Of a stretch of DNA of 64,000 bases, positions 326 through 19,081 are shown piece by piece. The notes beneath the pieces were generated by a model. The model was not told the origin of the DNA and did not search any database. It saw only the letters and a list, made by a program, of their open reading frames with translations. A program made the position numbers and the translations under genes. Position 1 is the first letter of the stretch, and each line of letters begins with the position of its first letter. The stretch comes from Massilia atriviolacea. GTDB lineage: Bacteria > Pseudomonadota > Gammaproteobacteria > Burkholderiales > Burkholderiaceae_D. The stretch covers positions 1 through 64,000 of the forward strand of contig NZ_RXLQ01000014.1 of NCBI RefSeq assembly GCF_003953935.1. Direction: 5' to 3'.

Positions 326-1108
326 CTATCCGCCCAACGTCGCCCCTCCGTCAATCCTCAAGTCGTGCATGGTGATGTGGCGTGCGCTGTCCGACGCCAG
401 ATACAGCACCGCCTCGGCGATATCCTCGGGCGTGGCAATCCGTTTCAACGGAATCCCCAGCCTGAACGTCTCCAGCGAACCGCCGATGACGCCCTGGGAC
501 CCATCGGCGCCGTTCCACAACTGGCGCTGCATCTCGGTGTCGGTCGATCCCGGCGACACCACATTGCAGCGAATCCCATGGGGCGCCAGTTCCAGCCCGA
601 GGCAGCGCATGAACTGCGTGGACGCCGCTTTCGACGCCGCATAGGCCCCCATCTGCATCCTCGGCACGCTTGACGCATTCGACGCCACCGTCACGATGGC
701 GCCGCGCTTGCGCTCCACCATGCCGGCCGCCACCGCGCGGCACAGGCGGAACACGCCGCCGGCATTGACCGCAAAGGTCCGCTCCCAGTCGTCATCGCTG
801 CAATCCAGTATGGACCCCATGCGCAGGATGCCCGCCACGTTGACCAGCACGTCGATCTCGCCCAGCTCGCGCTCGACCTGAGCCACTGCCGCGTTCACGG
901 CCGCGCTGTCCGTCACATCCACTGCGATGCCGATGGCTCGGGTGCCGCTGGCGCGCAAGGTGGCCGCCATGTCCTCGACCGCGCCCGCCTTTACGTCAAA
1001 TACCGCCACCGCGGCGCCGCCCGCCGCCAGCTTGCGCGCCACCGCCGCGCCGATGCCCTGCGCCGCGCCGGTGACCAGCGCGACCTTGCCTTCGAATTGA
1101 TTCGTCAT
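326..1108 (-). CDS. entA: 2,3-dihydro-2,3-dihydroxybenzoate dehydrogenase
   Basis: A short-chain dehydrogenase/reductase that oxidises 2,3-dihydro-2,3-dihydroxybenzoate to 2,3-dihydroxybenzoate (DHB) with NAD+, the last step of catechol supply. The 260-residue length fits the family. The nucleotide-binding motif GAAQGIG is at residues 14-20, and the catalytic Tyr156 and Lys160 lie in YAASK. The stretch [12 protein letters not shown] followed by EMQ matches Escherichia coli EntA closely, which separates it from generic SDRs. I chose the ATG at 1108 because the homologous fold begins there; the open frame continues upstream into non-homologous sequence. It is the last gene of the siderophore operon, 34 bases after fepC. 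Confidence 0.93.
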
Positions 1109-1142
1109 CCTGTTCCTTGTTTCTTGTTCGTTTGGTGAAAAA

Positions 1143-1937
1143 CTAATGAAAACGCCTGACCGGCACCACCACCGGCGCGCCGTCGCCGGGAGCGGACAGC
1201 ACGTCCACCTCCAGCTCGTACAACTGGCGCACCAGCGCGGGCGTGACCACGTCGCGCGGCGCGCCGGCGGCGACGATGCGCCCATCGCGCATGGCCACCA
1301 GGGTGTCCGCATAGCGCGCCGCCGCAGCCAGGTCGTGCAGCACGATCACCACCGCGCGTCCGTCGGCGGCCAGCGCGCGCACGCGGTCCAATACATCGAC
1401 CTGGTGCCCCAGATCGAGCATGCTGGTGGGCTCGTCGAGCAGCAGGATCGGCGTCTCCTGCGCCAGCGTCATCGCCAGCCAGCAGCGCTGGCGCTGTCCG
1501 CCGGATAACTGGTCGAGCCGGCGCTGCGCCAGCGCGCCGACATCGGTGGCCGACATGGCCGCGTTGACCGCCTGTTCGTCCTCGTGCGACCACTGGCGGA
1601 ACAAACCCTGGTGCGGATGCCGCCCGAAGCGAACCAGCCCGCTGACAGTGATGCCCTCCGGCGCCTGCGGCGTCTGCGGCAGCATCGCCAGGCTGCGCGA
1701 TGCCTGCTGCTGGCGCATCTGCCACAGGTCCTGCGCGCCGAGCGTGATGCTGCCTTGCTGCGGCCGGTGCAGGCGCGCCATGCAGCGCAGCAGGGTCGAT
1801 TTGCCGCAACCGTTCGGACCGACGATGACCGTAACCTTGCCCGGCTCGATCGCCAGGTCGATCCCGTGCAGCACGGGGCGGCCCGGATGGCCGGCATGCA
1901 GGTTCTGCACACGCAATTGCGTCACTTGTTTATTCAT
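1143..1937 (-). CDS. fepC: Ferric siderophore ABC transporter ATP-binding protein
   Basis: Cytoplasmic ATPase of the ferric-catecholate importer, energising the FepD/FepG permease pair. In 264 residues it shows Walker [10 protein letters not shown] (40-48), signature LSGGQRQR, Walker B LLLDEPT and the H-loop VLHDL. Its start codon shares one base with the fepG stop (TAATG), so the two are translationally coupled. Sequence and context fit the FepC/FhuC class. A longer open frame in this register reaches back to 2840 but only crosses fepG antisense to its codon frame. Confidence 0.92.
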
Positions 1938-2983
1938 TACTGCGTTTCTCCATTGCGCTCGTGAAGGAGCAGGTACAGCAAAAACGGTCCGCCCAGCAGG
2001 TTGCAGATCACGCCGACCGGCAGTTCGGCGTCGCCCAGGATGACGCGGCCCAGCGTGTCGGCGGCGGCCACCAGCAACGCGCCGGACAAGGCCGACGCCA
2101 GCAGCGCACCGCGCCCGTAGCCGACCAGCCGTTCGCCGATGAACGGGGCGGCCAGAGCGACGAAGGCGATCGGCCCGCACACGCCCACTGCCATCCCGGC
2201 CAGCAGCACGGCGCACAGCAGCACCTGCCACTGGGTGGCGCGCACCGGCAGGCCGAGGCCTGTTGCGACATCCGCGTCGAAGCGCAGCAGCGCCAGGCGA
2301 CGGCTGGCCAGCAGCGCGGGCGGCAGCAGCACGAGTAATGCGACGGCGAGCGGCAGGGCCGAGCCGTAGGTGCGCCCGCTCAGGCTTCCGATACTCCATG
2401 CGTACAGCGCGCTGGCGTGCATCAGCTCCTGCTGCGACAGCAGCAGTTCGGCTCCCGCGCGCAACAGGCTCGCAATCGCGATGCCGACCACCAGCAGGCG
2501 GTGACCGCGGCTGTCGAGCGGGCCGCTGGCCAACAGCAGCAGGGCCACCGCACCCAGGGCGCCCAGCGGTCCCACCCACCATGGGCCCAGCATGCCGGTG
2601 GTACCTGCGATGAGGGCCATGAAGACGCCCAGCATGGCGCCATCGGCCACGCCGAGCATGTCCGGCGAGGCGAGGCGGTTGCGCGTGAGGGTCTGGATCA
2701 GGCTCCCGGCGAGGCCCAGCGAGGCGCCGGCCAGCAGGCCGGTGAGCACGCGCGGCAGGCGGAATTCCAGCACCATCAGGCGCATGCCGCCGGGCGCATC
2801 GCCATTGAGGACGGCCAGCAGCTGGGATGGCGTCAGCCACGCCGGGCCGGCCGACAAGGCGACCGCCACGGCCAGCACAAGCGCCAGCAGCAGGGCGCAG
2901 GTGGCGTACAGCGAGCGGCGGGCGACCAGCACCGACAGCGCGCCGCCGCGCAGGACGACAAGACCTGGTTCGGGCGCCATCAT
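1937..2983 (-). CDS. fepG: Ferric siderophore ABC transporter permease, FepG-like
   Basis: Inner-membrane permease subunit of the BtuC/FecCD family, here 348 residues with about nine to ten hydrophobic segments. Family landmarks are RLPRVLTGLLAGASLGLAG near residue 75 and the C-terminal GPIAFVALAAPFIGE and ELPVGVICNLLGGPF segments. I prefer the ATG at 2983, because it overlaps the fepD stop as ATGA; an upstream ATG at 3007 would add eight residues. It should form a heterodimer with FepD. FepD versus FepG identity rests on gene order and similarity, not on a specific motif. Confidence 0.88.
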   Translation of the reverse strand: MMAPEPGLVVLRGGALSVLVARRSLYATCALLLALVLAVAVALSAGPAWLTPSQLLAVLNGDAPGGMRLMVLEFRLPRVLTGLLAGASLGLAGSLIQTLTRNRLASPDMLGVADGAMLGVFMALIAGTTGMLGPWWVGPLGALGAVALLLLASGPLDSRGHRLLVVGIAIASLLRAGAELLLSQQELMHASALYAWSIGSLSGRTYGSALPLAVALLVLLPPALLASRRLALLRFDADVATGLGLPVRATQWQVLLCAVLLAGMAVGVCGPIAFVALAAPFIGERLVGYGRGALLASALSGALLVAAADTLGRVILGDAELPVGVICNLLGGPFLLYLLLHERNGETQ

Positions 2984-3957
2984 CGGGTGCTCCCGCGCGC
3001 GAGCCACACCAGCAGCGGCGCGCCGAACAGGGCGGTCAGTACGCTGATCGGCGTTTCGAAGGGCTGCGCCACCAGGCGCGCGCCCAGGTCGGCGAACAGC
3101 AGCACGATGGCGCCCACCCAGGCCGATGCCGCCAGTTGCGCCGCCAGTCCCTGCGCCAGCGCGCGCGCGAGGAAGGGGGCGAGCAGCCCGAGAAAGGCGA
3201 TCGGCCCGGTCAGGGCCACCGCGCTGCCGGTCAGCAGCGTGGCGGTAAAGGCGACGGCGGCGCGCAGCATGCGCGGCGAGTGCCCGAGCGAGCGGGCGAT
3301 GTCGTCGCCGAGCAGCATGGCCGACAACGGCCGCGCCAGGAACAGGGCGGCCAATAATCCGAACACGATGAAAGGGGCGGCCAGCAGGATCATGCCGCCG
3401 TTCGAGCCGGCCAGCGAGCCGAGTACCCAGAAGCGGTACTGGTCGTAGCCGGACGGCTGGCTAAGCAGCATGGCGGAACTCAAGCCATGAAAGGTCGCGC
3501 CCAGCGCCACGCCGGCCAGCACAAGGCGCAACGGACTGCCCGACTGGCGGCCCGCGTTGGCCACGCCGAGCACGCAGGCGTTGCCCAGCAGGGCGCCGGC
3601 GCCGGCCCACAGCAGATATGCGAGGCCCGATTCGGCGCCGGCCCAGGTAATGCCGGCCACCACGCCGAGCGCGGCGCCGGCGTTCACGCCCAGCAGGCCC
3701 GGCTCGGCCAAGCGGTTGCGGGTGACGGTTTGCATCAGCATGCCGGCCACGCCCAGCGCGGCGCCGACCAGCAGCGCGGCCAGGGTGCGCGGGGCGCGCA
3801 CGTCGCGCACGATCATCTGCAGCGGCGAGTCGTCGCCGCCGGCCAGCGCGGCGCGCAGGTCGGCCATGCCGGCGTCGCCGGCGCCGACCAGCATCGATGC
3901 CAGCAGCAGCGCCGGCAGGACGGGCGCGAGAAGCGCGATGCGACTGCCTGGACTCAA
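2980..3957 (-). CDS. fepD: Ferric siderophore ABC transporter permease, FepD-like
   Basis: Second permease of the importer, 325 residues of the FecCD family. It begins with a transmembrane segment (LLAPVLPALLLASMLVG) and carries the conserved RAPRTLAALLVGAALGVAG loop, GPIAFLGLLAPFLAR and the C-terminal ETPISVLTALFGAP. Its start overlaps the fepB stop by four bases and its stop overlaps the fepG start by four, the pattern of a tightly coupled operon. It forms the translocation channel together with FepG. Confidence 0.9.
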   Translation of the reverse strand: MSPGSRIALLAPVLPALLLASMLVGAGDAGMADLRAALAGGDDSPLQMIVRDVRAPRTLAALLVGAALGVAGMLMQTVTRNRLAEPGLLGVNAGAALGVVAGITWAGAESGLAYLLWAGAGALLGNACVLGVANAGRQSGSPLRLVLAGVALGATFHGLSSAMLLSQPSGYDQYRFWVLGSLAGSNGGMILLAAPFIVFGLLAALFLARPLSAMLLGDDIARSLGHSPRMLRAAVAFTATLLTGSAVALTGPIAFLGLLAPFLARALAQGLAAQLAASAWVGAIVLLFADLGARLVAQPFETPISVLTALFGAPLLVWLARGSTR

Positions 3958-4874
3958 GGCGCGGCCAAGGCTTTGTCGACGTCGGCCAGGATCGCCAGGG
4001 CGGCCAGCGGGCCGCCGGGACTGGTCCAGAGCGAGCCGTCCACCGCGCGCACCTGGTTACGCTGCGATGCGCCGAGCTGGCGGAACGGCGGCGACTGGCG
4101 CGCGGCAGCAAGGGCGTCGTTGGCCGGACCGCTGGTGCTCAGGGTGCCGACGAAAATCCAGTCGGCGTCGATGGCGGCCAGCGCTTCCAGGCTCAGTGGG
4201 CGCGAGTGCGCGGCGCCCGGCTGCATCTGCGCGGCGGGACGGCGCATCTTCAGGTCGGCCAGCACCAGGCTGGCAAACGAGTCGCGCAGCATGTACGACG
4301 GACCCTGTGGATTCCAGCGCACCACGCTCACCGTGGTGTTGGCGCGCTCGCCCAGGCGCTTGCGCAGCGCGTCGGCCCTGGCCAGGTAGTCGGTCAAAAA
4401 CGCCTCGGTCTCGGGCGTCTTGCCCATCACGGTGCCGATGCGGCGGAAGGTGGCTTGCCAGTTCTCGCCCGGCTGGTAGGTGACGACGGTGGGGGCGATC
4501 TTGGCCAGTTGGGTCAGCAGCTCGGGGTCGCTCATGCCGCCGGCGAGAATCAGGTCGGGCTGCATGCCGACCACCAGGTCGAGCACGGGCGCGGCGAAGT
4601 TGCCTGCACTCGGGATCGCATTGGCCGCCGCGCCGAGGTAGCGCGGCATGGCGGTCTGGCCACGGCCCTTGGTGGCGCCGGCGGGCTTGATCTTCAATGC
4701 CAGCAGGGCGTCGAGATCGAGTTCGGACAAGGCGACGACGCGTTGGGCGCGTTCGGGCACGGTGACGGCGCGGTTGGCGGCGTCGACGATGTTGCGCTGC
4801 GCCAGCGCCGGCGCGGCGCACACGGCCATGAGGGCAAACAGGGCAACTCGGCGCAGGGGTGAGAATGTGATCAT
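3954..4874 (-). CDS. fepB: Periplasmic ferric siderophore-binding protein
   Basis: Class III (helical-linker) substrate-binding protein that delivers the iron-catecholate complex to FepDG. In 306 residues it has a signal peptide ending near ALA/QR (residue 26), then the usual start of such proteins (NIVDAANRAVTVPERAQRVV). LDLVVGMQPDLILAGG is typical of the first lobe and ADWIFVGTL of the second. There is no lipobox cysteine, so it should be soluble, as expected for a Gram-negative cell. It overlaps the reductase gene upstream and fepD downstream by four bases each. Confidence 0.9.
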   Translation of the reverse strand: MITFSPLRRVALFALMAVCAAPALAQRNIVDAANRAVTVPERAQRVVALSELDLDALLALKIKPAGATKGRGQTAMPRYLGAAANAIPSAGNFAAPVLDLVVGMQPDLILAGGMSDPELLTQLAKIAPTVVTYQPGENWQATFRRIGTVMGKTPETEAFLTDYLARADALRKRLGERANTTVSVVRWNPQGPSYMLRDSFASLVLADLKMRRPAAQMQPGAAHSRPLSLEALAAIDADWIFVGTLSTSGPANDALAAARQSPPFRQLGASQRNQVRAVDGSLWTSPGGPLAALAILADVDKALAAP

Positions 4875-5701
4875 GATTCGGCTTCTTCCAGTTCATCCAT
4901 AATGCGGTGGCGTTCGGCGTGGTACGCCTCTTCGGTGTGTTCGTCCTTCCAGTACGGGACGGCGTACATGTCGGCGCGGGCCACGCCGCGCTGGTGCAGC
5001 AGGAAGTCGCGCACGGCCAGCAGCTGGTTGCTCTCGCCGGCCAGCGTGACCGACACGCGCCCCGGCGGCCAGGCCAGCGCCTTGACCGCGTCGAGCAGCA
5101 GGGTGCTGATGCCGGGACGCGCGCCACGGCGCGACAGCCAATGCACCGTGAATCCGGCCGGGTAGGGCAGCGCCTGGACTTCGGAGTGGTCGGGCACTTC
5201 GATCAGCACCGTGCCGCGCGCCTTGCGGGGCACGCCGCGCAGGGCGGCGGCAATCGCGGCCAGCGAACTCGGGTCGCCGATCATCAGGTGGTAGTCGGCT
5301 TGCGGCACGAAGCGCGGCGGCCCGCCGGGACCGGCCACGCCGACGGCGTCGCCCTCCTGCGCGTGCACGGCCCAGCGCGAGGCGGGGCCGTCGTCGCCGT
5401 GCAGCACCAGGTCCACATCGAGCTCGCCCGCTTCGGCGTCGTAGCGCGCCACGGTGTAGGTGCGGGCGATGGGGCGGATGTCGGCCGGCGGCCACACCGG
5501 GCCGTCGGGGCCGAGCGTCGGCAGCACCGGTTCGCGCTGGCCTTCGCGCGCCAGCAGGAGCTTGATGTGAGCGCCGTCGCTGTCCGGCGGGAAGCCGGCC
5601 AGGGCGTCGCCGGCCAGCGTGATGCGGCGCATCAGCGGGGTCAGTTGCAAAATGCGCCGCACGTGCAGCATCCTTGGCGGTGTGCGTTTGGGAGTGGTCA
5701 T
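4871..5701 (-). CDS. Siderophore-interacting FAD-binding reductase (SIP/ViuB type)
   Basis: Cytoplasmic flavin reductase that releases iron from the imported ferric siderophore by reduction. The 276-residue protein has the SIP-family flavin motif RTYTVARYD near residue 80, then DLVLHGDDGPASRWA and the nucleotide-side DPSSLAAIAAAL. This family is the usual alternative to a Fes esterase, and no esterase gene is visible in the locus, so reduction is probably the main release route. The start overlaps the entF stop by four bases. Confidence 0.9.
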   Translation of the reverse strand: MTTPKRTPPRMLHVRRILQLTPLMRRITLAGDALAGFPPDSDGAHIKLLLAREGQREPVLPTLGPDGPVWPPADIRPIARTYTVARYDAEAGELDVDLVLHGDDGPASRWAVHAQEGDAVGVAGPGGPPRFVPQADYHLMIGDPSSLAAIAAALRGVPRKARGTVLIEVPDHSEVQALPYPAGFTVHWLSRRGARPGISTLLLDAVKALAWPPGRVSVTLAGESNQLLAVRDFLLHQRGVARADMYAVPYWKDEHTEEAYHAERHRIMDELEEAES

Positions 5702-8700
5702 GGTCTGCCTTCCGGGTCAATACGTTGTGCCAGCACGCGGCCGATGTGCCCCAGGGGCGCCGGCTGGCTCATGGACGAATGGGTGCAATCGACGTCGATG
5801 CGTTCCAGCTGGCCGTTCACATACGGCGTCCAGCCTTTCCAGTCGGGGGCGTCGGGGCCGCGCCGGCTGGCGTGGAAGAATAGCACGTCGCCTTCATAGC
5901 GTGGGTGCCGCAATTGGCGGTACAGGCGCATCGACAGCAGTGCGGTGGTGGTGATGCGTTCGATGTGGGCGTCGTCGGCCATGGCCAGCGAGCTGCCCGG
6001 CTGGCGGAACTGCGCCAGCAATGCGTCGCGCGCCAGCGGCTGGCCGTCGGCGTCCACCGACGGCGCGCCGATCACGTCCAGCATGGCGATCAGGGCGTCG
6101 CGTTCCTCTGCTTCCGGCTTGCCTTCCCAGATGTCGCTCGGGTAGGAGTCCATCATCGCCAGCAGCGACACCGTTTCGCCCAGCGCCTGCAGGCGCGCCG
6201 CCAGGGCGTGGGCCAGGCCGCCGCCCGAGGACCAGCCGATCAGGCGGTACGGCCCTTGCGGCTGGGCGCCGCGCACCAGGCCAAGGTAGTCGTCGACCTG
6301 CATGTCGATGTCGGCCGGTGGCGTGCCGCTCATGCCGCGCGCCTGCAAGCCGTAGATCGGCGTGTGCGGCAGGTAGGCGGCCAGGCCCAGGTAGCACCAC
6401 GACAGGCCTTCGGCCGGATGCACGCAGAACAGGGCCGGACCGCTGCCGCGCTGGATGGTCAGCAGCGGGGCGAATTCGCCGCCCGCAGCCGCCGCCGGCG
6501 GCGCGTGGCCGACGGTGCCGAGCGAATGCGCCAGCGCGGCCACGGTGCGGTGGCGGAACAGGGCCGACACCGCAACTTCGCGCTTCAAGGCCGCGCCGAG
6601 GCGGTTGGCGACCTGGATCGCCTGCAGCGATTTGCCGCCCAGCGCAAAGAAGTCGTCCGATGGCGTCAACGCTTCCACGCCGAGCACCTCGCGCCAGATC
6701 GACATGACCGATTGTTCGAGCGGGGTGGCGCCGGCCGCCGTTGGCGCGGCATCGGGTTCTTTGGCGCGCAATGCGGAGCGGTCGATCTTGCCGTTGGCGT
6801 TGCGCGGCAGGCGCGCCAGGCTGGCGTAGTTGGCCGGCACCGCCGCCGCCGGCAGGCGTTCGGCCAGGAAGGCGCGCAGGGCAGGCGCATTGAGCTTGCC
6901 GGCGGTGGCGACAAAGGCGCGCAGGTGCTTGCCGCCATCGGGCTGCGACTGGCACACCACCGCCGCTTCGCGCACGCCGGGGTATTGCAGCAGCGCCGCT
7001 TCGATCTCGGTCGGGTCGATACGGTGGCCGCTGATCTTGACTTCGTCGTCCAGCCGGCCCAGGTAGCGCAGCTCGCCATCTTCGCCCAGCACCACGCGGT
7101 CGCCGGTGCGGTAGGCGCGGCGGCCGTCGGGCAGGGTCACGAAACGCTGCGCAGTCAATGCCGCGCGGTCGAAGTAGCCGCGTGCGAGGCCGCCGCCGAT
7201 CAGGCACAGTTCTCCTTCTTCGCCGATGCCGACCGGGTGCTCGGTGCAGACGGCGATGTCGACACCGGGCAGCGGCCGGCCGATCGGCACGGCGTCGCCG
7301 TTCCAGTCGATGGCCTCGGGCCCCGCCAGCCGGGCGGTGGTACAGATGACGGTCGCTTCGGTCGGGCCGTAGGTATTGAGCAGCACCAGATGGCTCGGGG
7401 CGGCGGTGCGCCAGCGCGCCACGCGTTCGGCCAGTGCCGCCTCGCCCCCGATGATGACCAGGCGCAGGCAGTCGGGCAGCTTGGCATTGTGCTGGCCGAC
7501 GTGGAAGGCGAGTTCGTGCCAGAAGGCGGTCGGCAGATCGAGCACGCTGATGCGCAGGCGCGTGCAGGCGTCGATGAAGCGCTCCAGCGATTCGAGCATG
7601 GCGTCGTCGCGCAGGATCAGCGTTGCGCCGGCGCCCAGGGTGAGGAAGATCTCCTCGACGCTGGCGTCGAAATGCAGCGGTGCGAATTGCAGTACGCGGT
7701 CGTTTGCCGTGACCTGGTAGCGCGCCGTGGCGCCGGCGCCGAAGTGGGCCAGCGCGGCGCGCTCGATCATGACGCCATTCGGCCGGCCGGTGGAGCCGGA
7801 GGTGTAGATGATGTAGGCCAGCGCGCTGTCGGCAACCGCCAGCGGGGCGATCATCGGCTCGCCTGGCGCGGCTTCGTCGATGCACAGCAGCGGCAAGGCG
7901 GCCGGCAGCAGGGGCGCGTACTTGCGCAGGCTGACCACCAGCGTGGGTTTCACGTCTTCCAGCACGGCGGCCACGCGCAGGGCGGGGCCGTCCGGGTCGA
8001 GCGGTACATAGCCGCCGCCGGCCCACATGATGGCCAGCATGGCGACGATGGTGTCCGCGCTGCGCGGCAGCAGCAGGACCACGCGGCTCTCTTCGGTCAC
8101 GCCGGCGTCGCGCAGGCGGCCGGCCATGGTCTGGACCGCCGTTACCAGTTCAAGGTAAGTGAGTTCGGTGTCGCCGTGAATGAGGGCGGTTTTTTGCGCA
8201 TCGTGCCGCAGCAGCGAGGCGAGGACGGAGTCGGGTGCGGTCGGCAGCGGGCCGCCGGACGCCAGGGCGGGCGTGGCGTGCGGCGCCTGTCCGAGCACGT
8301 TGGACAGCGGCGCGTCGGGTTGCGCGAGCAGGTCGGTCAGCGCTTGCAGCAGCGACGCATGCAGCGCGCGCACGGTGGCGTCGTCGTAGGCGTCCGGATT
8401 GGCTTCGATGTCGATGCGGCTGTGCGTGCCCGGCGCAATCGTGATCGACAGGTCTTCGACCGGACCGGCGGACACCGGGTGCGAGACCGCGTGCAGCGGG
8501 CCGAAGACCGGCGGGCGGTCGAAGGGCATCAGGTTGACGACGGCGCCGAACAGGCGGCGCGCGCCGCCGCTCATGCCCAGGTCGTGCTTTAAATGTTCGT
8601 AGCGGTAGCGCTGGTGCGGGCGGAGCGCCTTCATCTCGGCGGCGACCGCGCGCGCCAGCTCGGCCAGCGATTGCGCCGGCGCCGGCGCCAGGCGCAGGGG

Positions 8701-9558
8701 CACGATGTTCATCGCCATGCAGGGAATCGTCAGCGCGACCGATCCGAGGCGGCCCATGACGGGCAGGCCCAGTGTCAGCTCGCCCGCCGAGGCGTGGCGG
8801 CGCAGCCAGGCCCCGGTGGCGGCGATCAGCACGGCGGCCCAGTCCACGCCGGCGGCGCTGGCGATGGACTGGCAGCGTTCGATGGTGCTGGCGGCGATGG
8901 CGCCGCGCACACGGCGCACGCCGCGCGCCACGGTGGCCGGCGGCGCCAGCATGGCCGGCGCGCGGGCGTCCATCATGCGCGCCATCCAGAAATCGCGGTC
9001 GCGCACGTAGGCGGGGGAGGCGACATAGGCCGCGTCTTCGGCCACCACCGGATCGAGCTTGCCGGGACGCGCGGGCGGCGCCTCGGTACCGGCGCAGCGG
9101 GCCGAATACAGGGCCGCCACGCGCTGCGCCAGCATGGCGTAGGCGAAGCCGTCGAGGGCGATGTGGTGGGCGCGCAGGTACCACAGCGCCTTGTCCGGGC
9201 CGGTTTGCAGCAGCGCGCTGGCGAACAGCGGGCCGCGCGCCAGGTCGGCCGGTTGTTGCAGGTCGTCCTGCATCCACCTCCTGGCTTCGGCATCGTCCAT
9301 GGCGTGGCGCGCGAACGGCCAGTCTTCGCTCGGGGCGGGCGTTTGCCAGACCGCGTTGCCGTCGCTGGCAAAGCGCATGTGCAGGGCGTCGCATTCGCGC
9401 ACGGCCTGGCGCAGCGCGGCTTCGAACAGGGCGGCGTCCAGCGGGCCGCTCAGTTCGACCGCTTCCGCCGTCCAGTAGGCGGGGCTGGCGGCGTCCAGCT
9501 GCTGCCCCAGCCAGATGCCGTATTGGGCGCTGGTGAGCGCCAGGCGCGTGCCGCTCAC
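5698..9558 (-). CDS. entF: Single-module NRPS of a catecholate siderophore, EntF-like (C-A-PCP-TE)
   Basis: Nonribosomal peptide synthetase of 1286 residues, almost the length of E. coli EntF (1293). The condensation domain spans about 1-430 with HHIALDG at 131-137. The adenylation domain (about 440-960) has [18 protein letters not shown] and KISGHRIDP. The carrier domain has GGKS with Ser977, and the thioesterase has GWSSG with Ser1110. The start is a GTG overlapping the entB stop (GTGA); the frame remains open to 10155 but upstream residues are not homologous. Aligned by eye with GrsA, the pocket reads D-A-E-D-V-I-T-V, unlike the serine code of EntF (DVWHFSLV), so the amino acid loaded may be basic. 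The gene symbol therefore reflects architecture, not proven product. Confidence 0.88.
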
Positions 9559-10430
9559 TTGTTCACCCGGCGCGCGTCGAGCAGTTCCCACCAGTCGGCG
9601 AGGGTCGGGCGTTCGGCCAGTTCGACGAAGGTGGTTTCGATGCCGGCACGGCGCCAGCGTTCGATCAGGCTCATTAAACGGATCGAATCGAGGCCGGCGA
9701 ACAGCAGGTTGTCGTCCGGGAGCAGGTCCGAGGCCGGCACCGCCAGCAGTTCCGCCACTTCCGCCTGCAGGGCGGAGCGCGTGGCGTGCCATGCGGCGGC
9801 CGGCTTGAGCGCACCGCTCACGGTCGCGGTGCTGGCGACAACGCCGCAACGCTGCGACACGTAGTCGAGGCCCATCCGGTGCTGTTCGGCCGAGAAGTCG
9901 GCCAGCGCATCGCCCACCAGGAAGGGCTGGATGTCGCTCATGAAGGCGTCGGCGGCGGTCATCAGGCAGCCGATGTGGGCGTACACGCCGCACACGATCA
10001 GCTGGTCGCGGCCCTGTTCGCGCATGCGCGCCAGCAGGTCGCTGCGGAAGAAGGCGCTGTAGCGCCATTTGGTCAGCACCACGTCCTGCGCGCGCGGCGC
10101 CAGGCTGGCCACCACCGGGGCGCGCTCGGGACGCGCGGTCAGGCCGGGGCCCCACCAGTCGGTCAGCAGGCCGCGGTCTTCGGGCGATTGCACGGCCGGC
10201 TGCGCGGTGTAGACGACCGGTACGCCGGCGGCGTCGGCGGCGTCGCGCAACTGTCCGATGTGCGCGATCAGCTCGGGAATCGGCGCGGCGGCGTTGTCGT
10301 AGAAGTCGAGGAAGTACTCCTGCATGTCGTGAATCAGCAGTACGGCGCGCTTGGATTCGGGCATCCAGCTAACGCGGTTGTCCGGCATGGCCGTGGGCAT
10401 GGGGTAGGAGGCGATTTTCGGGATGGTCAT
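9555..10430 (-). CDS. entB: Isochorismatase with aryl carrier domain
   Basis: Bifunctional protein of 291 residues. The N-terminal isochorismatase (about 1-210) hydrolyses isochorismate to 2,3-dihydro-2,3-dihydroxybenzoate and shows [24 protein letters not shown] and [12 protein letters not shown]. The C-terminal aryl carrier domain has [14 protein letters not shown], whose serine takes the phosphopantetheine arm that carries DHB to the NRPS. The ATG at 10430 gives the standard N-terminus (PKIASYPMP). It starts 14 bases after entE and overlaps entF. No phosphopantetheinyl transferase gene is present, so priming must come from elsewhere in the genome. Confidence 0.94.
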
Positions 10431-10444
10431 GGTGCTTGCCGTTC

Positions 10445-12070
10445 TTATAGTGGAGTGCCGATCAGCTGGGCGATCTGTTCGCGCAGCTGGCGTTTGTTGA
10501 CTTTGCCGACGCCCGTGACAGGGAAGCGCTCGACGAATTCGATGCGGTCGGGGATCTTGTACTGGGCCACGCCGCGTTCGCGCAGGAAGCGCGTCAGTTC
10601 GATGGCGCGTACCGGCGCGCCGCGCGTGACGATGAAGGCGCAACTGCGCTCGCCGAGGTAGGCGTCGGGCATCGACACCAGCGCGGCGTCGTGCACGGCG
10701 GGGTGGGCCAGCAGGTGGTTTTCGACTTCCTCGGCCGCGACCTTGTCGCCGCCACGGTTGATCTGGTCCTTGGCGCGGCCTTCGACCACCAGGTGGCCGG
10801 ACGGCAGGCGCATCACCAGGTCGCCGGTGCGGTAGAAACCGTCGCTGGTGAAGGCGCGCGCGTTGTGTTCGTCGGCGCGGTAGTAGCCGCGGATGGTGTA
10901 CGGGCCGCGCGTGAGCAGGTGGCCGATGTCGCCATCGGGCAGGTCGCGGTCTTCGTCGTCGACGATGCGCACTTCGTCGGCCGGCGAGATCGGGCGTCCC
11001 TGCGTGTTGGCGGTCAGCTCGGGTGTGTCGTCCGGGCGGGTGTAGTTGACCAGGCCTTCGGCCATGCCGAAGACCTGTTGCAGGGCGCAGCCGAGCACCG
11101 GCCTGACGCGGCATGCGGCTTCGGCGGAAAGGCGCGCACCGCCGACCTGCAGCAGCTTCAGGCTATCGAGCTTGTGGCGGGTGGCGCCTGCCGCATCGAG
11201 CCACACCATGGCCAGCGGCGGCACCAGCGCGGTGATGGTCACCCCTTCGGCTTCGATCAGCGGGAACGCGTCGTCCGGCGTGGGACGGCGCGCGAGCACC
11301 ACGCAGCCGCCCGCGTGGAACACGCCGAAGGTGCCCGGAGAACTCATCGGGAAGTTGTGCGCGACCGGGAGGGCGCATAAATACACGCTGCCGCGATCCA
11401 GTTCGCAGATGTCGGCGCTGGCGCGCACGCTATACAAATAGTCGTCGTGGGTGCGCGGGATCAGCTTGGGCAGGCCGGTGGTGCCGCCGGAGAGCTGCAG
11501 GAAGGCCACGTCGCCCGGCTGCGGGCCGGCGATCTCGATGGCATCCGCATACAGCGAATCGAAGGCGATGAATTCGGCGGCGTCGCCGAGGACGATCACG
11601 CGCGCCAGGGCCGGCACGGCGGCCTGCACTTCGCGCGCCAGGGTGCGGTAGTCGAAGCCGGCGTCGCTGTCGGCGATGATATAGGCGGCGGCGTCGGTGA
11701 AGGCGCACAGGTGGCCGATCTCGTGGCGGCGGTGCGCGGGCAGGGCGAAGACGGGCAGTGCGCCGATGCGGAACAGGGCGAAGCAGGCGACGAAGAATTC
11801 GGCGACGTTGGGCAGTTGCACCACGACGCGGTCGCGCGCGGCGATACCGAGGCCGGTCAGGCCGGCGGCGAAGCGGTCGGCGCGCCGATCGAGTTCGGCG
11901 TAGCTCCAGCGGCGCGTGCCGCAGACCAGGGCGGTGCTGTCGGGGTGTTGGCGTGCGCGTTCGCGCAGCAGGGCTCCGAAGGTTTCACCGAGCCAGTAGC
12001 CGGCTTCGCGATAGCGCGCCGCAAAGTCGTCGGGATACGGGGTGAAACCGGGCAGATAGTCGGTGTTCAT
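10445..12070 (-). CDS. entE: 2,3-dihydroxybenzoate-AMP ligase
   Basis: Stand-alone adenylation enzyme of 541 residues that activates DHB with ATP and loads it onto the EntB carrier domain. Motifs are [21 protein letters not shown] (with its P-loop), [12 protein letters not shown] (catechol-pocket region typical of EntE/DhbE), [15 protein letters not shown] and [20 protein letters not shown] near the hinge. The start at 12070 overlaps the entC stop by four bases and gives the usual leader ([20 protein letters not shown]). Confidence 0.94.
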
Positions 12071-13275
12071 GCCGCGTCCTCCAGCACCGCTTCGAGGCCC
12101 ATCGCGCGCAGCATGGTGCGCAGCTTGCCGGACGTTTCGAGATATTCGAGTTCGGGGTCGGAGCCGGCCACGATGCCGGCGCCCGCGTACAGGGTGGCGC
12201 TGTGGGCGCGCACGTCGGCGCAGCGCAGCGTGACGGCCCATTCGCCGTCGCCGTTGGCGTCCATCCAGCCCACCAGGCCGGCGAAGAAGCCGCGGTCGAA
12301 TCCTTCGGCCTCGTTGATGAAGCTGCGCGCCACGGCGGCGGGGTGGCCGCAGACGGCGGGGGTCGGGTGCAGCGCCATGGCCAGGGCCAGCGAGGTCATC
12401 TCCGGCTCGTTCAATTCCGCAGTCACTTCGCTGCCGAGGTGCCACATGGTGGGCGTGGCGATCAGCGAGGGCACGGCCGGCACCTGGACCGAATGGCAGA
12501 ACGGACGCAGCGAATCGGCCACCATGTCGGCCACCAGCGCGTGTTCGTGCAGGTCTTTTTGCGATGTCAGCAACCCTTGCGCGCGGCGCTGGTCTTCCTG
12601 CGCATCGGCGCTGCGCGGGATCGAGCCGGCCAGCGGATGGCAGCGCACGCGCGTGCCAATACGCGAGAGCAGCAGTTCGGGACTGGCGCCGATCAGGGTG
12701 CGGCGGCCATCCTGTTCCGGCGCCATGTCGATGGCGAAGGTGTAGCCGTGCGCATTGCGTGCGCCCAGCCGGGCCAGCAGGGAAGCGACATCGATCTCGG
12801 TTTCCAGGGTCAGTGAGCGCGACAGGACCACTTTTTCCATCCGGCCGGCGCGGATGCGTTCGACCGCCTGGGCCACGGCGCGGCGGTACTGGGCCTGGTC
12901 GGGCACGGCGGCGATGGTGCGCGGGAAGCGGGCGCGCGTGGCCGCCGCTTGCGGGGCGGGCGAAGGCAGGTTGGCGGGACCGGTGGCCATCAGCACGTGC
13001 TCGGGGATGAACAGGTGGGCCGGGGCGTCGGCCAGGAAGGGCACGGCGCCGATCAGCACCGGCAGCATCTCGCCGTCGCGGCGCGCCGCGCGCAGCAGGG
13101 TGCTGGCGGCGCCGGCCAGGGCGGCCCCGGACTGCGGCGCCAGGATGCTGCGCTTGCCGCTGGCGAGCAGCGTGTGGCCGGGCGAGGAGAACAGGGTGGC
13201 GCCAGCTTCGTAGTGCGCGCACAGGTCGGCCGCGCTGGTGCGGCTCAGGTAATGGCCGTGCAATCTGTCATTCAT
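12067..13275 (-). CDS. entC: Isochorismate synthase
   Basis: Chorismate-binding enzyme of 402 residues converting chorismate to isochorismate, the first committed step of DHB synthesis. It shows the family motifs [23 protein letters not shown] and [10 protein letters not shown], and the C-terminal [15 protein letters not shown]. It is the first gene of the minus-strand operon, and its start lies about 60 bases downstream of a candidate promoter that brackets a Fur-box-like palindrome. A menaquinone-type MenF is less likely because entE, entB and entA are adjacent. Confidence 0.93.
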
Positions 13276-13333
13276 GGTGAAATCCTTGCGTTAGGAGGGC
13301 AGTCGGAGCGATTCGCCGGATGGGCGGGGCCGA

Positions 13334-13363
13334 ACTATAGATCGGAATGATAATCATTTACAA
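13334..13363 (-). promoter_or_regulatory. Candidate entC promoter with embedded Fur box
   Basis: Read on the minus strand there is TTGTAA (13363-13358), an 18-base spacer and TATAGT (13339-13334). The palindromic core AATGATAATCATTT (13346-13359) lies in the spacer and shares the 12-base ATGATAATCATT centre with the classical Fur box. Iron-loaded Fur binding here would block RNA polymerase. Element assignment is by eye. Confidence 0.65.
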
Positions 13364-13378
13364 CCTAAATATTAATGC

Positions 13379-13416
13379 AAATGAGATTGATTCGCATTTA
13401 GCGAGTATGGTATGCT
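13379..13416 (+). promoter_or_regulatory. Candidate DAHP synthase/exporter promoter with Fur box
   Basis: TTGATT (13388-13393), a 17-base spacer and TATGCT (13411-13416) form a reasonable sigma-70 promoter. The -35 lies inside an imperfect palindrome at 13379-13399 with arms AAATGAGA and TCGCATTT, a Fur-box form often seen in betaproteobacteria. The plus-strand biosynthesis/export genes should thus be iron-repressed together with the minus-strand operon. Confidence 0.62.
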
Positions 13417-13472
13417 TAAGTTTCACACCTGTCAACGATGGCAATTGTTCATCCAACCTGAAAAGACCTACC

Positions 13473-13571
13473 ATGCCCGCACTTCACCTCGCCGTTCGCC
13501 AACCGGGCCTGCCGGCGCCCGCCGCGCCGGTCCATGCCGTCCACGCCAACCGCCGTGGTGGACCGGCATGA
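13473..13571 (+). CDS. Possible 32-residue leader peptide upstream of the DAHP synthase
   Basis: A short frame from ATG at 13473 whose TGA overlaps the ATG of the DAHP synthase (ATGA at 13568-13571). It lies between the candidate promoter and the enzyme, so it would be on the same transcript. The peptide is rich in Ala, Pro and His and has no Trp, Tyr or Phe, so a classical aromatic-amino-acid attenuator is not indicated. The ribosome site in front is weak. It may serve translational coupling, or be chance. Confidence 0.35.
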   Translation: MPALHLAVRQPGLPAPAAPVHAVHANRRGGPA

Positions 13572-14650
13572 AGCGCGACCTGTCTCCGCTGTCGCACGAC
13601 ACGCCCGGCCCCTTGCCGTCGCCGGCCGAATTGCGCGCGCAGCTGCCGCTGTCCGATACCGGGGCCCTGCTGATCGGCGCCGCGCGCCAGACCGTGCGCG
13701 ATATCCTCGACCGCCGCGATGCGCGCCTGATGGTGGTGGTCGGTCCCTGTTCGATCCACGACCTGCACGCGGGCCGCGACTACGCGCGCCGCCTCAAGGC
13801 GCTGGCCGACGAAGTGGCCGACACCCTGTTCGTGGTGATGCGCGTGTACTTCGAAAAACCGCGCACGCGGGTGGGCTGGAAAGGGCTGATCAACGACCCG
13901 CGCATGGACGGCTCGTTCCGCATCGACGAGGGCCTGGCGCTGGCGCGCCAGTTCCTGATCGAAGTGGCCGAACTGGGACTGCCGGCGGCGACCGAAACGC
14001 TGGACCCGGTCTCGCCGCATTACGTCGGTGAGCTGATCAGCTGGGCCGCGATCGGCGCGCGCACCACCGAATCGCAGACGCACCGCGAGATGGCCTCGGG
14101 CCTGGGCGTGCCGGTCGGCTTCAAGAACGGCACCGACGGCAAGGTCGATACGGCGGTCAATGCGATCGCCTCGGCATCGCATCCGCACGCCTTCCTCGGC
14201 ATCGATGCGGCGGGCCGCGCGGCTGTGGTGCGCACGCCCGGCAATCCGTACGGGCACCTGGTGCTGCGCGGCGGCGGCGGACGTCCCAACTACGACGCGG
14301 CCAGCGTGGCATCGGCCGAACAGGCGCTCGAGAAGGGCGGCCAGCCGCCCAACATCGTGATCGACTGCGCGCACGATAACTCGAACAAGAACCACACCCT
14401 GCAGGCCGGCGTGATGGCCGACGTGGTGCGCCAGCGCCTGGCGGGCAACCGCAGCGTGGCCGGGGTGATGATCGAAAGCTTCATCGAAGCGGGCAACCAG
14501 TCCATTCCCGCCGAACTGTCGGCACTGCGCTACGGCTGCTCGGTGACCGATCCCTGCGTCGACTGGGACGGCACGGTGGCCATGCTGCGCGCCGCGCGCG
14601 AGGCGCTGCGCGAGGACGTCGCCGCGCGCCGGAGAAGCAGCGATGACTAA
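13568..14650 (+). CDS. 3-deoxy-7-phosphoheptulonate (DAHP) synthase, class I AroG/AroF type
   Basis: Condenses phosphoenolpyruvate and erythrose 4-phosphate, the entry step of the shikimate pathway. The 360-residue protein carries VGPCSIHD, MRVYFEKPRTRVGWKGLINDP, GARTTESQTHRE, GFKNGTDG and IDCAHDNSNKNH, all hallmarks of the class I enzyme. I start at the ATG at 13568, since the longer open frame (from 13412) adds non-homologous residues over the promoter. Being on a Fur-box-bearing transcript beside the siderophore operon, it probably feeds chorismate into DHB synthesis under iron starvation. Which effector inhibits it cannot be told from sequence. Confidence 0.9.
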   Translation: MKRDLSPLSHDTPGPLPSPAELRAQLPLSDTGALLIGAARQTVRDILDRRDARLMVVVGPCSIHDLHAGRDYARRLKALADEVADTLFVVMRVYFEKPRTRVGWKGLINDPRMDGSFRIDEGLALARQFLIEVAELGLPAATETLDPVSPHYVGELISWAAIGARTTESQTHREMASGLGVPVGFKNGTDGKVDTAVNAIASASHPHAFLGIDAAGRAAVVRTPGNPYGHLVLRGGGGRPNYDAASVASAEQALEKGGQPPNIVIDCAHDNSNKNHTLQAGVMADVVRQRLAGNRSVAGVMIESFIEAGNQSIPAELSALRYGCSVTDPCVDWDGTVAMLRAAREALREDVAARRRSSDD

Positions 14651-15824
14651 GGCTTCCCGCGCAATCGCCCTGGTGGCGGCGCTGCAGTTCGTGTATCTGG
14701 TCGACTTCATGATGGTGCTGCCGCTCGGTCCCGACCTGGCGCGCGAGCATGGCTTTGCGCTCGACCGCCTGGGCTGGCTGGCGGCGGCGTATACGCTGGC
14801 GTCGGCGCTCTCCGGCCTGGTCACCTTCCGCCTGCTGGACCGCTTCGACCGCAAGCCGGCGCTGTTGCTGACCTTCGGCCTGCTGGCGCTGGCCACCTTC
14901 GCCACCAGCTTGTGCCAGGGCTTGCCGGCGCTGATGGTGGCGCGCGCGCTGACCGGCGCCTTCGGCGGACCGGCGGTGGCGATCGGCATGGCCATCGTGA
15001 TCGACATGACGCCGCCGGAACAGCGCGGCAAGGCCATGGCCAAGGTGATGCTGGGCTTTTCGCTGGCGGCGATTGCCGGCGTGCCGCTCGGCCTCGAACT
15101 GGCCCGGATCGGCGGCTGGCAGGCGCCGTTCTACATGGTGGCGGGGCTGGCGGCGCTGGTGCTGGCGGCGATGGCGTGGCTGTTGCCGGCCCTGGAAGGG
15201 CACCTCAACGCGCGCGAGAAGGTCTCGGCGCGCATTCTGCTGGCGCGGCCCGCGGTGCGCCTGGCGATGCTGCTGCAGGCCGGCAGCGCGTTCTCGGCCT
15301 TTCTGGTGATCCCGCATTTTTCGGCATACTTCCTGCTGAACCTGGGCTTTCCGCGCGCGCAGCTCGGCATGCTGTACTTCGCCGGCGGGGTGGTCGCGCT
15401 GCTGACGGTGCAGCTGCTCGGACGCCTGGCCGACCGCGCCGGGCCGGTGCTGGCCGCCGCTCTGGCGTCGAGCGCGTTCTGCGCCGGGCTGGCGCCCTTC
15501 TTCGGCGCGGGCGCCGTGCTGCCGATCCTGTTCTTCGTGCTGTTCATGGCCGGTAACGCGGGACGCAACGTGACCATGGCGGCCACCGTCAGCCAGGTGC
15601 CGTCGCCGCACGAGCGGGCCGGCTTCATGTCGCTGCAAAGCCTGGTGCAGGACGTGGCCATCGGCGCGGCCGCGCTGGTGACCAGCTGGCAGCTGGGCGA
15701 GGCCGCCGACGGGCGCCTGACCGGCATGGCGCCGGTGGCGGCGCTGGCGGCCGTCATCGCCGTGGCGGTGGCGTGCGGACTGGCGCGGCTGGCCGGTACG
15801 CGCCGCGCTGTTGCGCTGGAGTGA
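14643..15824 (+). CDS. MFS transporter, probable siderophore exporter
   Basis: Major facilitator protein of 393 residues with about twelve transmembrane segments. It resembles drug/solute exporters (FMMVLPLGPDLAREHGF at the start, loop RLLDRFDRKPALLL between helices 2 and 3). The start overlaps the DAHP synthase by eight bases, and a strong terminator follows, so the two form a transcription unit. Its place in the Fur-linked locus suggests the EntS role, exporting the catechol siderophore, but the sequence alone does not give a substrate. Confidence 0.82.
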   Translation: MTKASRAIALVAALQFVYLVDFMMVLPLGPDLAREHGFALDRLGWLAAAYTLASALSGLVTFRLLDRFDRKPALLLTFGLLALATFATSLCQGLPALMVARALTGAFGGPAVAIGMAIVIDMTPPEQRGKAMAKVMLGFSLAAIAGVPLGLELARIGGWQAPFYMVAGLAALVLAAMAWLLPALEGHLNAREKVSARILLARPAVRLAMLLQAGSAFSAFLVIPHFSAYFLLNLGFPRAQLGMLYFAGGVVALLTVQLLGRLADRAGPVLAAALASSAFCAGLAPFFGAGAVLPILFFVLFMAGNAGRNVTMAATVSQVPSPHERAGFMSLQSLVQDVAIGAAALVTSWQLGEAADGRLTGMAPVAALAAVIAVAVACGLARLAGTRRAVALE

Positions 15825-18185: not shown

Positions 18186-19081
18186 CACAGGTAACTTTGC
18201 TGTCCAAATGATTTTCCCTGCAAGGAGGAGGTCATGTGGACAGCAGAGCAACGGGCGCGACATTCGTTGTCGGCGTCCAAAGGACGTAGTGGCTATCGGT
18301 CTGACATCAGTGACCAGGAGTGGAAGCTTGTTGAGCCCTTACTTCCGGGCCGGTCTCGGACAGGCAGCCCACGCAAGACGGAGCTTCGCCAAGTCATCAA
18401 TGCGCTACGTTACCTGGTGCGTTCAGGATGCGAATGGCGTATGTTGCCCAACGACTTTCCTCCATACCAAACGGTGTATTACTGGTTCCGCCGCCTGATG
18501 CGACGCTTCCTGTTCAGAACAATCCACGACCTGGCGCTCATGCTTGATCGGATGTGCGAGCAACGCGAGGTCGTTCCCTCGGCTGGCATCGTCGATAGCC
18601 AGTCGGTAAGGGCTCCTGGCGCACGTGAGCGCGGTTATGACGCACACAAGAAGATTGGCGGGCGCAAACGCCACATTGCAGTCGACACCGACGGGCGCTT
18701 GCTGGCAATGCACCTGACACCTGCTGATATCGCTGATTCGACCGGTGCCCAGTTCGTACTTGATGCCCTGGTCAAGCGCTGGCCTTGGGTTCAACATCTC
18801 TTCGGCGACGCCGCTTATGACAGGCGCACGCTGCTCGACAAGGCTGCCTATCTTGATTTTACGCTCGACGTTGTACGGGGCTTGCAGGGGCAAATCTGCT
18901 TTAAGGTACAACCTCGCCGCTGGGTCGTCGAACGCACGTTTGCATGGCTGATGCGCTACCGCCGTCTGGTGCGGGATTACGAGCAGCGTCTCGACGTATC
19001 CGAGGCCATGATGTACATTGCGCTTGGCTCATCGCTATTGCACCGGATTCGTTTCCGCTAAGTTTTTAAACAGTCTCTCAG
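18165..19081 (+). mobile_element. IS5-family insertion sequence, complete
   Basis: A 917-bp element bounded by perfect 21-bp inverted repeats beginning CTGAGAGACTGTTTAAAA at 18165 and complementary at 19061-19081, with one transposase gene inside. The outermost CTGA/TCAG bases may belong to the target instead of the element. I see no direct target duplication: left flank GGTG, right flank AACG. The DNA to its right is clearly AT-richer than that to its left. Confidence 0.9.
18234..19061 (+). CDS. IS5-family transposase
   Basis: DDE transposase of 275 residues in a single frame. It has the N-terminal DUF4096-like helical domain (SDISDQEWKLVEPLLP, LRYLVRSGCEWRMLPNDFPPY). The catalytic residues are in IVDSQSVRA (Asp), FGDAAYDRR (Asp) and RRWVVERTFAWLMRYRRL (Glu). 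An AAGGAGG ribosome site lies about seven bases ahead of the ATG. The stop codon falls at the inner edge of the right inverted repeat. No frameshift or stop is seen, so the element could be active. Confidence 0.93.
   Translation: MWTAEQRARHSLSASKGRSGYRSDISDQEWKLVEPLLPGRSRTGSPRKTELRQVINALRYLVRSGCEWRMLPNDFPPYQTVYYWFRRLMRRFLFRTIHDLALMLDRMCEQREVVPSAGIVDSQSVRAPGARERGYDAHKKIGGRKRHIAVDTDGRLLAMHLTPADIADSTGAQFVLDALVKRWPWVQHLFGDAAYDRRTLLDKAAYLDFTLDVVRGLQGQICFKVQPRRWVVERTFAWLMRYRRLVRDYEQRLDVSEAMMYIALGSSLLHRIRFR

Follow-up and report, generated by a model that had tools for sequence, protein, structure and literature searches.

Synthetases that build bis-catechol siderophores on lysine are already known from other bacteria. 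MxcG, the myxochelin synthetase of Myxococcus, is reported to couple L-lysine, at both of its amino groups, to 2,3-dihydroxybenzoate (DHB) (PMC8400222). The catechols described for Azotobacter vinelandii include azotochelin, aminochelin, and protochelin, and CsbX is described as an exporter encoded with a catechol operon in this organism (PMC10669500). Lysine clusters whose synthetase combines condensation, adenylation, peptidyl carrier protein, and thioesterase domains (C-A-PCP-TE) have been published for Burkholderia ambifaria, Methylophilus, and Chromobacterium violaceum, and cepaciachelin has been demonstrated in all three (PMC4906002, PMC13251462). A nonribosomal peptide synthetase (NRPS) of Massilia atriviolacea joins these enzymes. 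It is encoded near the start of contig NZ_RXLQ01000014.1 (assembly GCF_003953935.1), whose first 64,000 nucleotides form the window analysed here. Its domains, adenylation pocket, gene neighbourhood, and relatives point to a probable azotochelin-type synthetase, which would load L-lysine, acylate both amino groups with DHB, and hydrolyse off azotochelin.

The NRPS frame (5698..9558, minus strand) encodes 1286 amino acids from a GTG start, and a domain search gives the order C-A-PCP-TE (Table 1). A sequence-only reading of this DNA had already proposed the frame and an EntF-like single module with an A domain and a TE, all of which are confirmed. Four bases are shared between the GTG start and the entB stop, and the ATG of the gene for a siderophore-interacting FAD protein (SIP) likewise overlaps the NRPS stop by 4 bases, as in an operon. 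Against NCBIfam models, the protein scores 1242 bits with MxcG (cut-off 2300) and 583 bits with EntF (cut-off 2400); the controls, M. xanthus MxcG and E. coli EntF, exceed these cut-offs with 2671 and 2813 bits. By score, the NRPS is nearer to MxcG than to EntF, yet it ends in a thioesterase and lacks the reductase of MxcG. Membership of the MxcG family was rejected because of the missing C-terminal reductase and the score below the cut-off.

The specificity pocket of the A domain was read at the known positions of E. coli EntF in an alignment of 101 rows, the NRPS included; the alignment omits L009 (the window itself), L024 (a fragment), and L001-L008, and some rows are the same protein from two collections. 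The NRPS pocket is D-A-E-D-I-G-T-V-I, whereas that of EntF is D-V-W-H-F-S-L-V-D. The sequence-only reading had aligned the phrases FDASVEE, VLDLP, and LVIIGG, all present in the protein, with GrsA. It was correct at six of eight pocket positions, including E239 and D278, but was one position off at V299/I301, which are really I299/G301. Its conclusions that the pocket is not that for serine and that a basic amino acid is to be expected both stand, and the predicted amino acid can now be named. Lysine is the best reading of the pocket because the A. vinelandii homologue and MxcG carry the same code. All nine positions are identical in the homologue of A. vinelandii CA. The protein of M. xanthus AM003, which scores above the MxcG cut-off, agrees at positions one to eight. 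The lysine code tabulated for bacitracin BacB, DAESIGSV (PMC3207962), differs from the NRPS pocket at two positions, 278 and 322. A literature search for the literal code DAEDIGTV turned up no paper. E239 and D278 occur together in none of 23 other A-domain segments from the NRPS contigs of the same genome, a background that comes from nine partly overlapping stretches and includes apparent near-copies, and in 98 of the 101 aligned rows, which were selected by similarity to the NRPS. Two small contigs of this genome, C31 and C42 (L120 and L121), encode A domains with the pocket DATDIGTIY, which has D278 but threonine at 239.

The main rival explanation concerns release. In a cepaciachelin synthetase, the bis-DHB-lysine thioester would be passed by the TE, or otherwise, onto putrescine to give a putrescine amide, and this is a possible but clearly less probable identity for the NRPS. 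Published cepaciachelin clusters share the C-A-PCP-TE make-up (PMC13251462, PMC4906002), a figure legend describes a DAHP synthase and an MFS transporter in those of Burkholderia (PMC5681537), and Methylophilus is reported to make cepaciachelin alongside azotochelin and aminochelin (PMC13251462). Moreover, Methylobacillus rhizosphaerae, from the cepaciachelin-type clade, has one genomic C-domain match, which suggests that the putrescine amide may need no second C domain and that the TE may carry out the transfer.

Several comparisons place the NRPS apart from these enzymes. The A. vinelandii homologue is 57% identical over 1325 aligned positions, the TE included, whereas cepaciachelin-type enzymes reach 43-52% among the best 80 of 507 relatives from a contig scan. 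In a C-A-PCP tree (58 hand-chosen rows of the 101; quick LG+G4 run), the NRPS falls with A. vinelandii in a 15-row TE clade (SH-aLRT 97) made up of Massilia, Collimonas, Herbaspirillum, Leptothrix, three Chitinibacteraceae, and A. vinelandii. A separate 11-row clade (100) contains Burkholderia, Chromobacterium, Iodobacter, and Methylobacillus. Its cepaciachelin-type label rests on the published producers, whose strains are not themselves among the rows, and on B. cepacia LK29 (row L055), which has been named as having cepaciachelin genetic capacity (PMC5681537). A tree of the 36 rows classed as TE also separates these 11 rows (99/99; bootstrap not settled). The TE elbow is GWSLG in 11/11 cepaciachelin-type rows but GWSSG in 14/15 rows of the NRPS clade, the other row having GWSAG; GWSSG is also found in some rows elsewhere. 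Gene content was compared over 47 loci (E <= 1e-15) within the stretches at hand, with about 1.5 kb of flank for loci from genome searches. The MFS exporter has a relative in 12/12 compared loci of the 15-row clade (54-94% identity) but in only 1/11 cepaciachelin-type loci (33%), and SIP is present in 0/11 of the latter. The exporter is also 55% identical to the A. vinelandii MFS protein at the equivalent place, whose gene is presumably csbX.

Other observations weigh against an azotochelin product. The pocket alone cannot tell azotochelin from cepaciachelin: the cepaciachelin-type rows carry DAEDIGTII (5), DAEDIGSII (4), DAEDIGSVI (1), and DAEDIGTVI (1), differing from the NRPS at no more than two of the nine, and the last, L052, shares all nine. 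In the TE tree, A. vinelandii sits in an unresolved fork and is not joined to the NRPS, whose supported partners there are other Massilia only. Branches are long in the C-A-PCP tree, residue composition is uneven, and support is below 80 at several forks within the 15-row clade. Release classes (TE, reductase, or none) were assigned using the GxSxG column of the alignment and the number of residues following the PCP serine, with the reductase confirmed by family search in M. xanthus only. Scored as four classes, they need six changes on this tree, and therefore the release domain does not track it in single steps. The A. vinelandii NRPS is itself assigned to azotochelin through the producer and the cluster type, and the TE could release its product onto an amine or alcohol rather than water. 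What the pocket and the TE tree lose as arguments for azotochelin is made up by the exporter and SIP counts.

For azotochelin synthesis, the DHB supply encoded in the cluster is complete, with EntC, EntB carrying a carrier domain, EntA, and EntE, and includes the aryl carrier partner. EntC, EntB, and EntA would make 2,3-DHB, which EntE would load onto the carrier domain of EntB; the A domain would activate L-lysine and attach it to Ser977 in the PCP. Both the alpha- and epsilon-amino groups of the tethered lysine may then receive DHB through the single C domain, as reported for MxcG, before the TE hydrolyses the thioester to give N,N'-bis(2,3-DHB)-lysine, that is, azotochelin. The product would leave through the MFS protein, and its iron complex would re-enter via the ABC importer. 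Reductive release of iron by SIP is proposed because an esterase cannot open amides.

The free acid is favored over protochelin by the distribution of a second C domain. A stand-alone C domain, which we take to be VibH-like, adjoins the A. vinelandii cluster (L033:15926-17224) and is 41% identical to the C domain of the NRPS. It is a candidate for the aminochelin/protochelin amide step. By the criterion used here, and with about 1.5 kb of flank for loci from genome searches, no stand-alone C domain was found near a cluster outside A. vinelandii among the loci compared. The best match to it in the M. atriviolacea genome is the NRPS's own C domain (41%), followed by a match of 25% and 109 bits. 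A whole-genome C-domain search gave one match on the window's contig. This contig starts 325 bases past the entA stop, which bounds the flank covered on that side. Azotochelin was preferred because the sole close match in this genome is the NRPS itself, and protochelin was judged unlikely since no stand-alone C domain was found for the cluster.

Related outcomes have lower standing than azotochelin or cepaciachelin. It is unlikely, but conceivable, that in the Massilia-type branch the TE does more than hydrolyse and passes the bis-DHB-lysyl chain to an alcohol or to an amine that is not putrescine, yielding an undescribed azotochelin derivative in a cluster without a receptor gene like that of its sister, Massilia sp. 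CF038. A DHB conjugate of a different basic amino acid, such as ornithine, diaminobutyrate, or arginine, is quite improbable. E239 and D278 would suit any positively charged side chain, but the code is common to a lysine-siderophore producer and MxcG, and the B. ambifaria homologue is reported with a lysine prediction and cepaciachelin masses in the supernatant (PMC4906002). Equally improbable is oligomerization or cyclization by the TE to an undescribed cyclic or dimeric bis-catechol lysine product. The TE of EntF oligomerizes and cyclizes its product, and the nucleophile used by a TE is unreadable from sequence. However, serine keeps a hydroxyl, whereas the lysine chain keeps no nucleophile once both amino groups are acylated, and the TE aligns throughout with that of the azotochelin producer. 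An enterobactin synthetase loading serine, which the domain order and the DHB gene set would match, is scarcely credible and was rejected on the pocket and the NCBIfam scores, and no Fes-type esterase was found among the cluster proteins scanned.

The surrounding genes form a catechol siderophore cluster (Table 1). EntC scores above the cut-off of the NCBIfam isochorismate synthase subfamily and below that of DhbC (459 vs 486). The divergent promoter carries AATGATAATCATT, the sole exact copy in the 7.36-Mb genome, which we take, from the Fur-box consensus, to be a putative Fur-box core; iron regulation of the cluster is presumed. Family searches of the cluster proteins (326-15824) found no outer-membrane receptor. 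In Massilia sp. CF038, the cluster includes a TonB-type receptor frame named by eye (L032:5628-7631), for which the M. atriviolacea genome has no close homologue (best 37 bits). A transposase-like frame, also identified by eye, lies a few kb past the siderophore genes (18234-19061).

Table 1. Domains of the NRPS and features of the surrounding cluster (positions in the window).
Feature	Position	Strand	Basis or remark
EntA-like 2,3-dihydro-2,3-DHB dehydrogenase	326..1108	-	above NCBIfam cut-off
FepC-like ABC ATPase	1143..1937	-	family search
FepG-like FecCD-type permease	1937..3007	-	family search
FepD-like FecCD-type permease	2980..3957	-	family search
FepB-like periplasmic binding protein	3954..4874	-	family search
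Siderophore-interacting FAD protein (SIP), probable ferric-siderophore reductase	4871..5701	-	family search
Thioesterase domain	5701..6435	-	Ser1110, Asp1137, His1260 aligned to EntF triad
PCP domain	6526..6711	-	residues 950-1011; Ser977 for phosphopantetheine arm
Adenylation domain	6754..8202	-	about residues 453-935
Condensation domain	8296..9543	-	HHIALDG, residues 131-137
EntB-like isochorismatase with carrier domain, DHB donor	9555..10430	-	family search
EntE-like 2,3-DHB-AMP ligase	10445..12070	-	above NCBIfam cut-off
EntC-like isochorismate synthase	12067..13275	-	family search
AATGATAATCATT	13346..13358	+	divergent entC / DAHP-synthase promoter
DAHP synthase, shikimate-pathway supply	13412..14650	+	also present in several compared clusters
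MFS exporter	14643..15824	+	best NCBIfam model MxcK, 237 bits, below cut-off 525

Matches to the NRPS at E <= 1e-150 occur in 18 of 294 family genomes, the M. atriviolacea genome included: fifteen are 56-100% identical near full length, one is a 70% fragment, and two are at 36-38%. M. atriviolacea has its genes in the order MFS - DAHP synthase - entC - E - B - NRPS - SIP - importer - entA, as do Massilia aquatica, M. mucilaginosa, two Collimonas, and Chitinimonas. M. frigida (L034) and genome G192 (L112) have the synthetase, SIP, and entA, with no FepBDGC-like importer match between SIP and entA.

Among homologues, the C-A-PCP protein ends in a TE, a reductase, or nothing, and this variety lends itself to comparing the influence of the release domain on the product. 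Eighteen loci (L088-L090, L094, L096, and L098-L110) have the lysine-type pocket DAEDIGTVV and only 52 amino acids after the PCP serine, so no release domain; they belong to Pectobacterium, Samsonia, Photobacterium, Salinivibrio, Aeromonas, Stutzerimonas, and relatives. In the betaproteobacterium Jeongeupia (L081), a C-A-PCP protein that lacks the TE motif extends 439 amino acids beyond the PCP serine, and the other rows of this class are from Myxococcota, Actinomycetota, and Chloroflexota.

A likely siderophore can be named for a Massilia lineage and for Collimonas. Among the papers listed by literature searches, no report of azotochelin in either genus was found, which does not settle the matter. 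None of six terms looked for occurs in the main text of a metallophore survey (PMC12971057). Massiliachelin is a thiazoline siderophore (PMC10291242) and is unrelated. The sequence-only reading had anticipated a DHB-diamino-acid conjugate from a single C-A-PCP-TE module, and the comparison supports this. Its further suggestion of a product not described for this locus type fails, as azotochelin, cepaciachelin, and myxochelin have all been described. An EntF-like domain order can conceal a lysine enzyme, and annotation as an enterobactin synthetase should be avoided for loci of this kind.

Compared with known systems, the NRPS shares with EntF the C-A-PCP-TE order and the EntA/B/C/E and Fep-like neighbors, but is only about 32% identical to it and lacks its serine pocket. 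MxcG has a homologous C-A-PCP portion, a lysine pocket matching at 8/8 positions, and an exporter family resembling that of the window (MxcK), but terminates in a thioester reductase where the NRPS has a thioesterase. The cepaciachelin (= chromobactin) synthetases of Burkholderia, Chromobacterium, and Methylophilus have the same domain order, a lysine pocket, DHB genes, and, in several clusters, a DAHP synthase; they differ in forming separate C-A-PCP and TE clades, in the GWSLG elbow, and in a product reported to bear putrescine (PMC13251462, PMC5681537). The A. vinelandii catechol cluster adds the stand-alone C domain, preceded by an esterase-like frame (by eye), and shows no SIP or FepBDGC-like match in the stretch compared. 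It has the order MFS-entC-E-B-NRPS-entA, and its C-A-PCP-TE synthetase resembles that of M. atriviolacea from end to end, with an identical nine-residue pocket.

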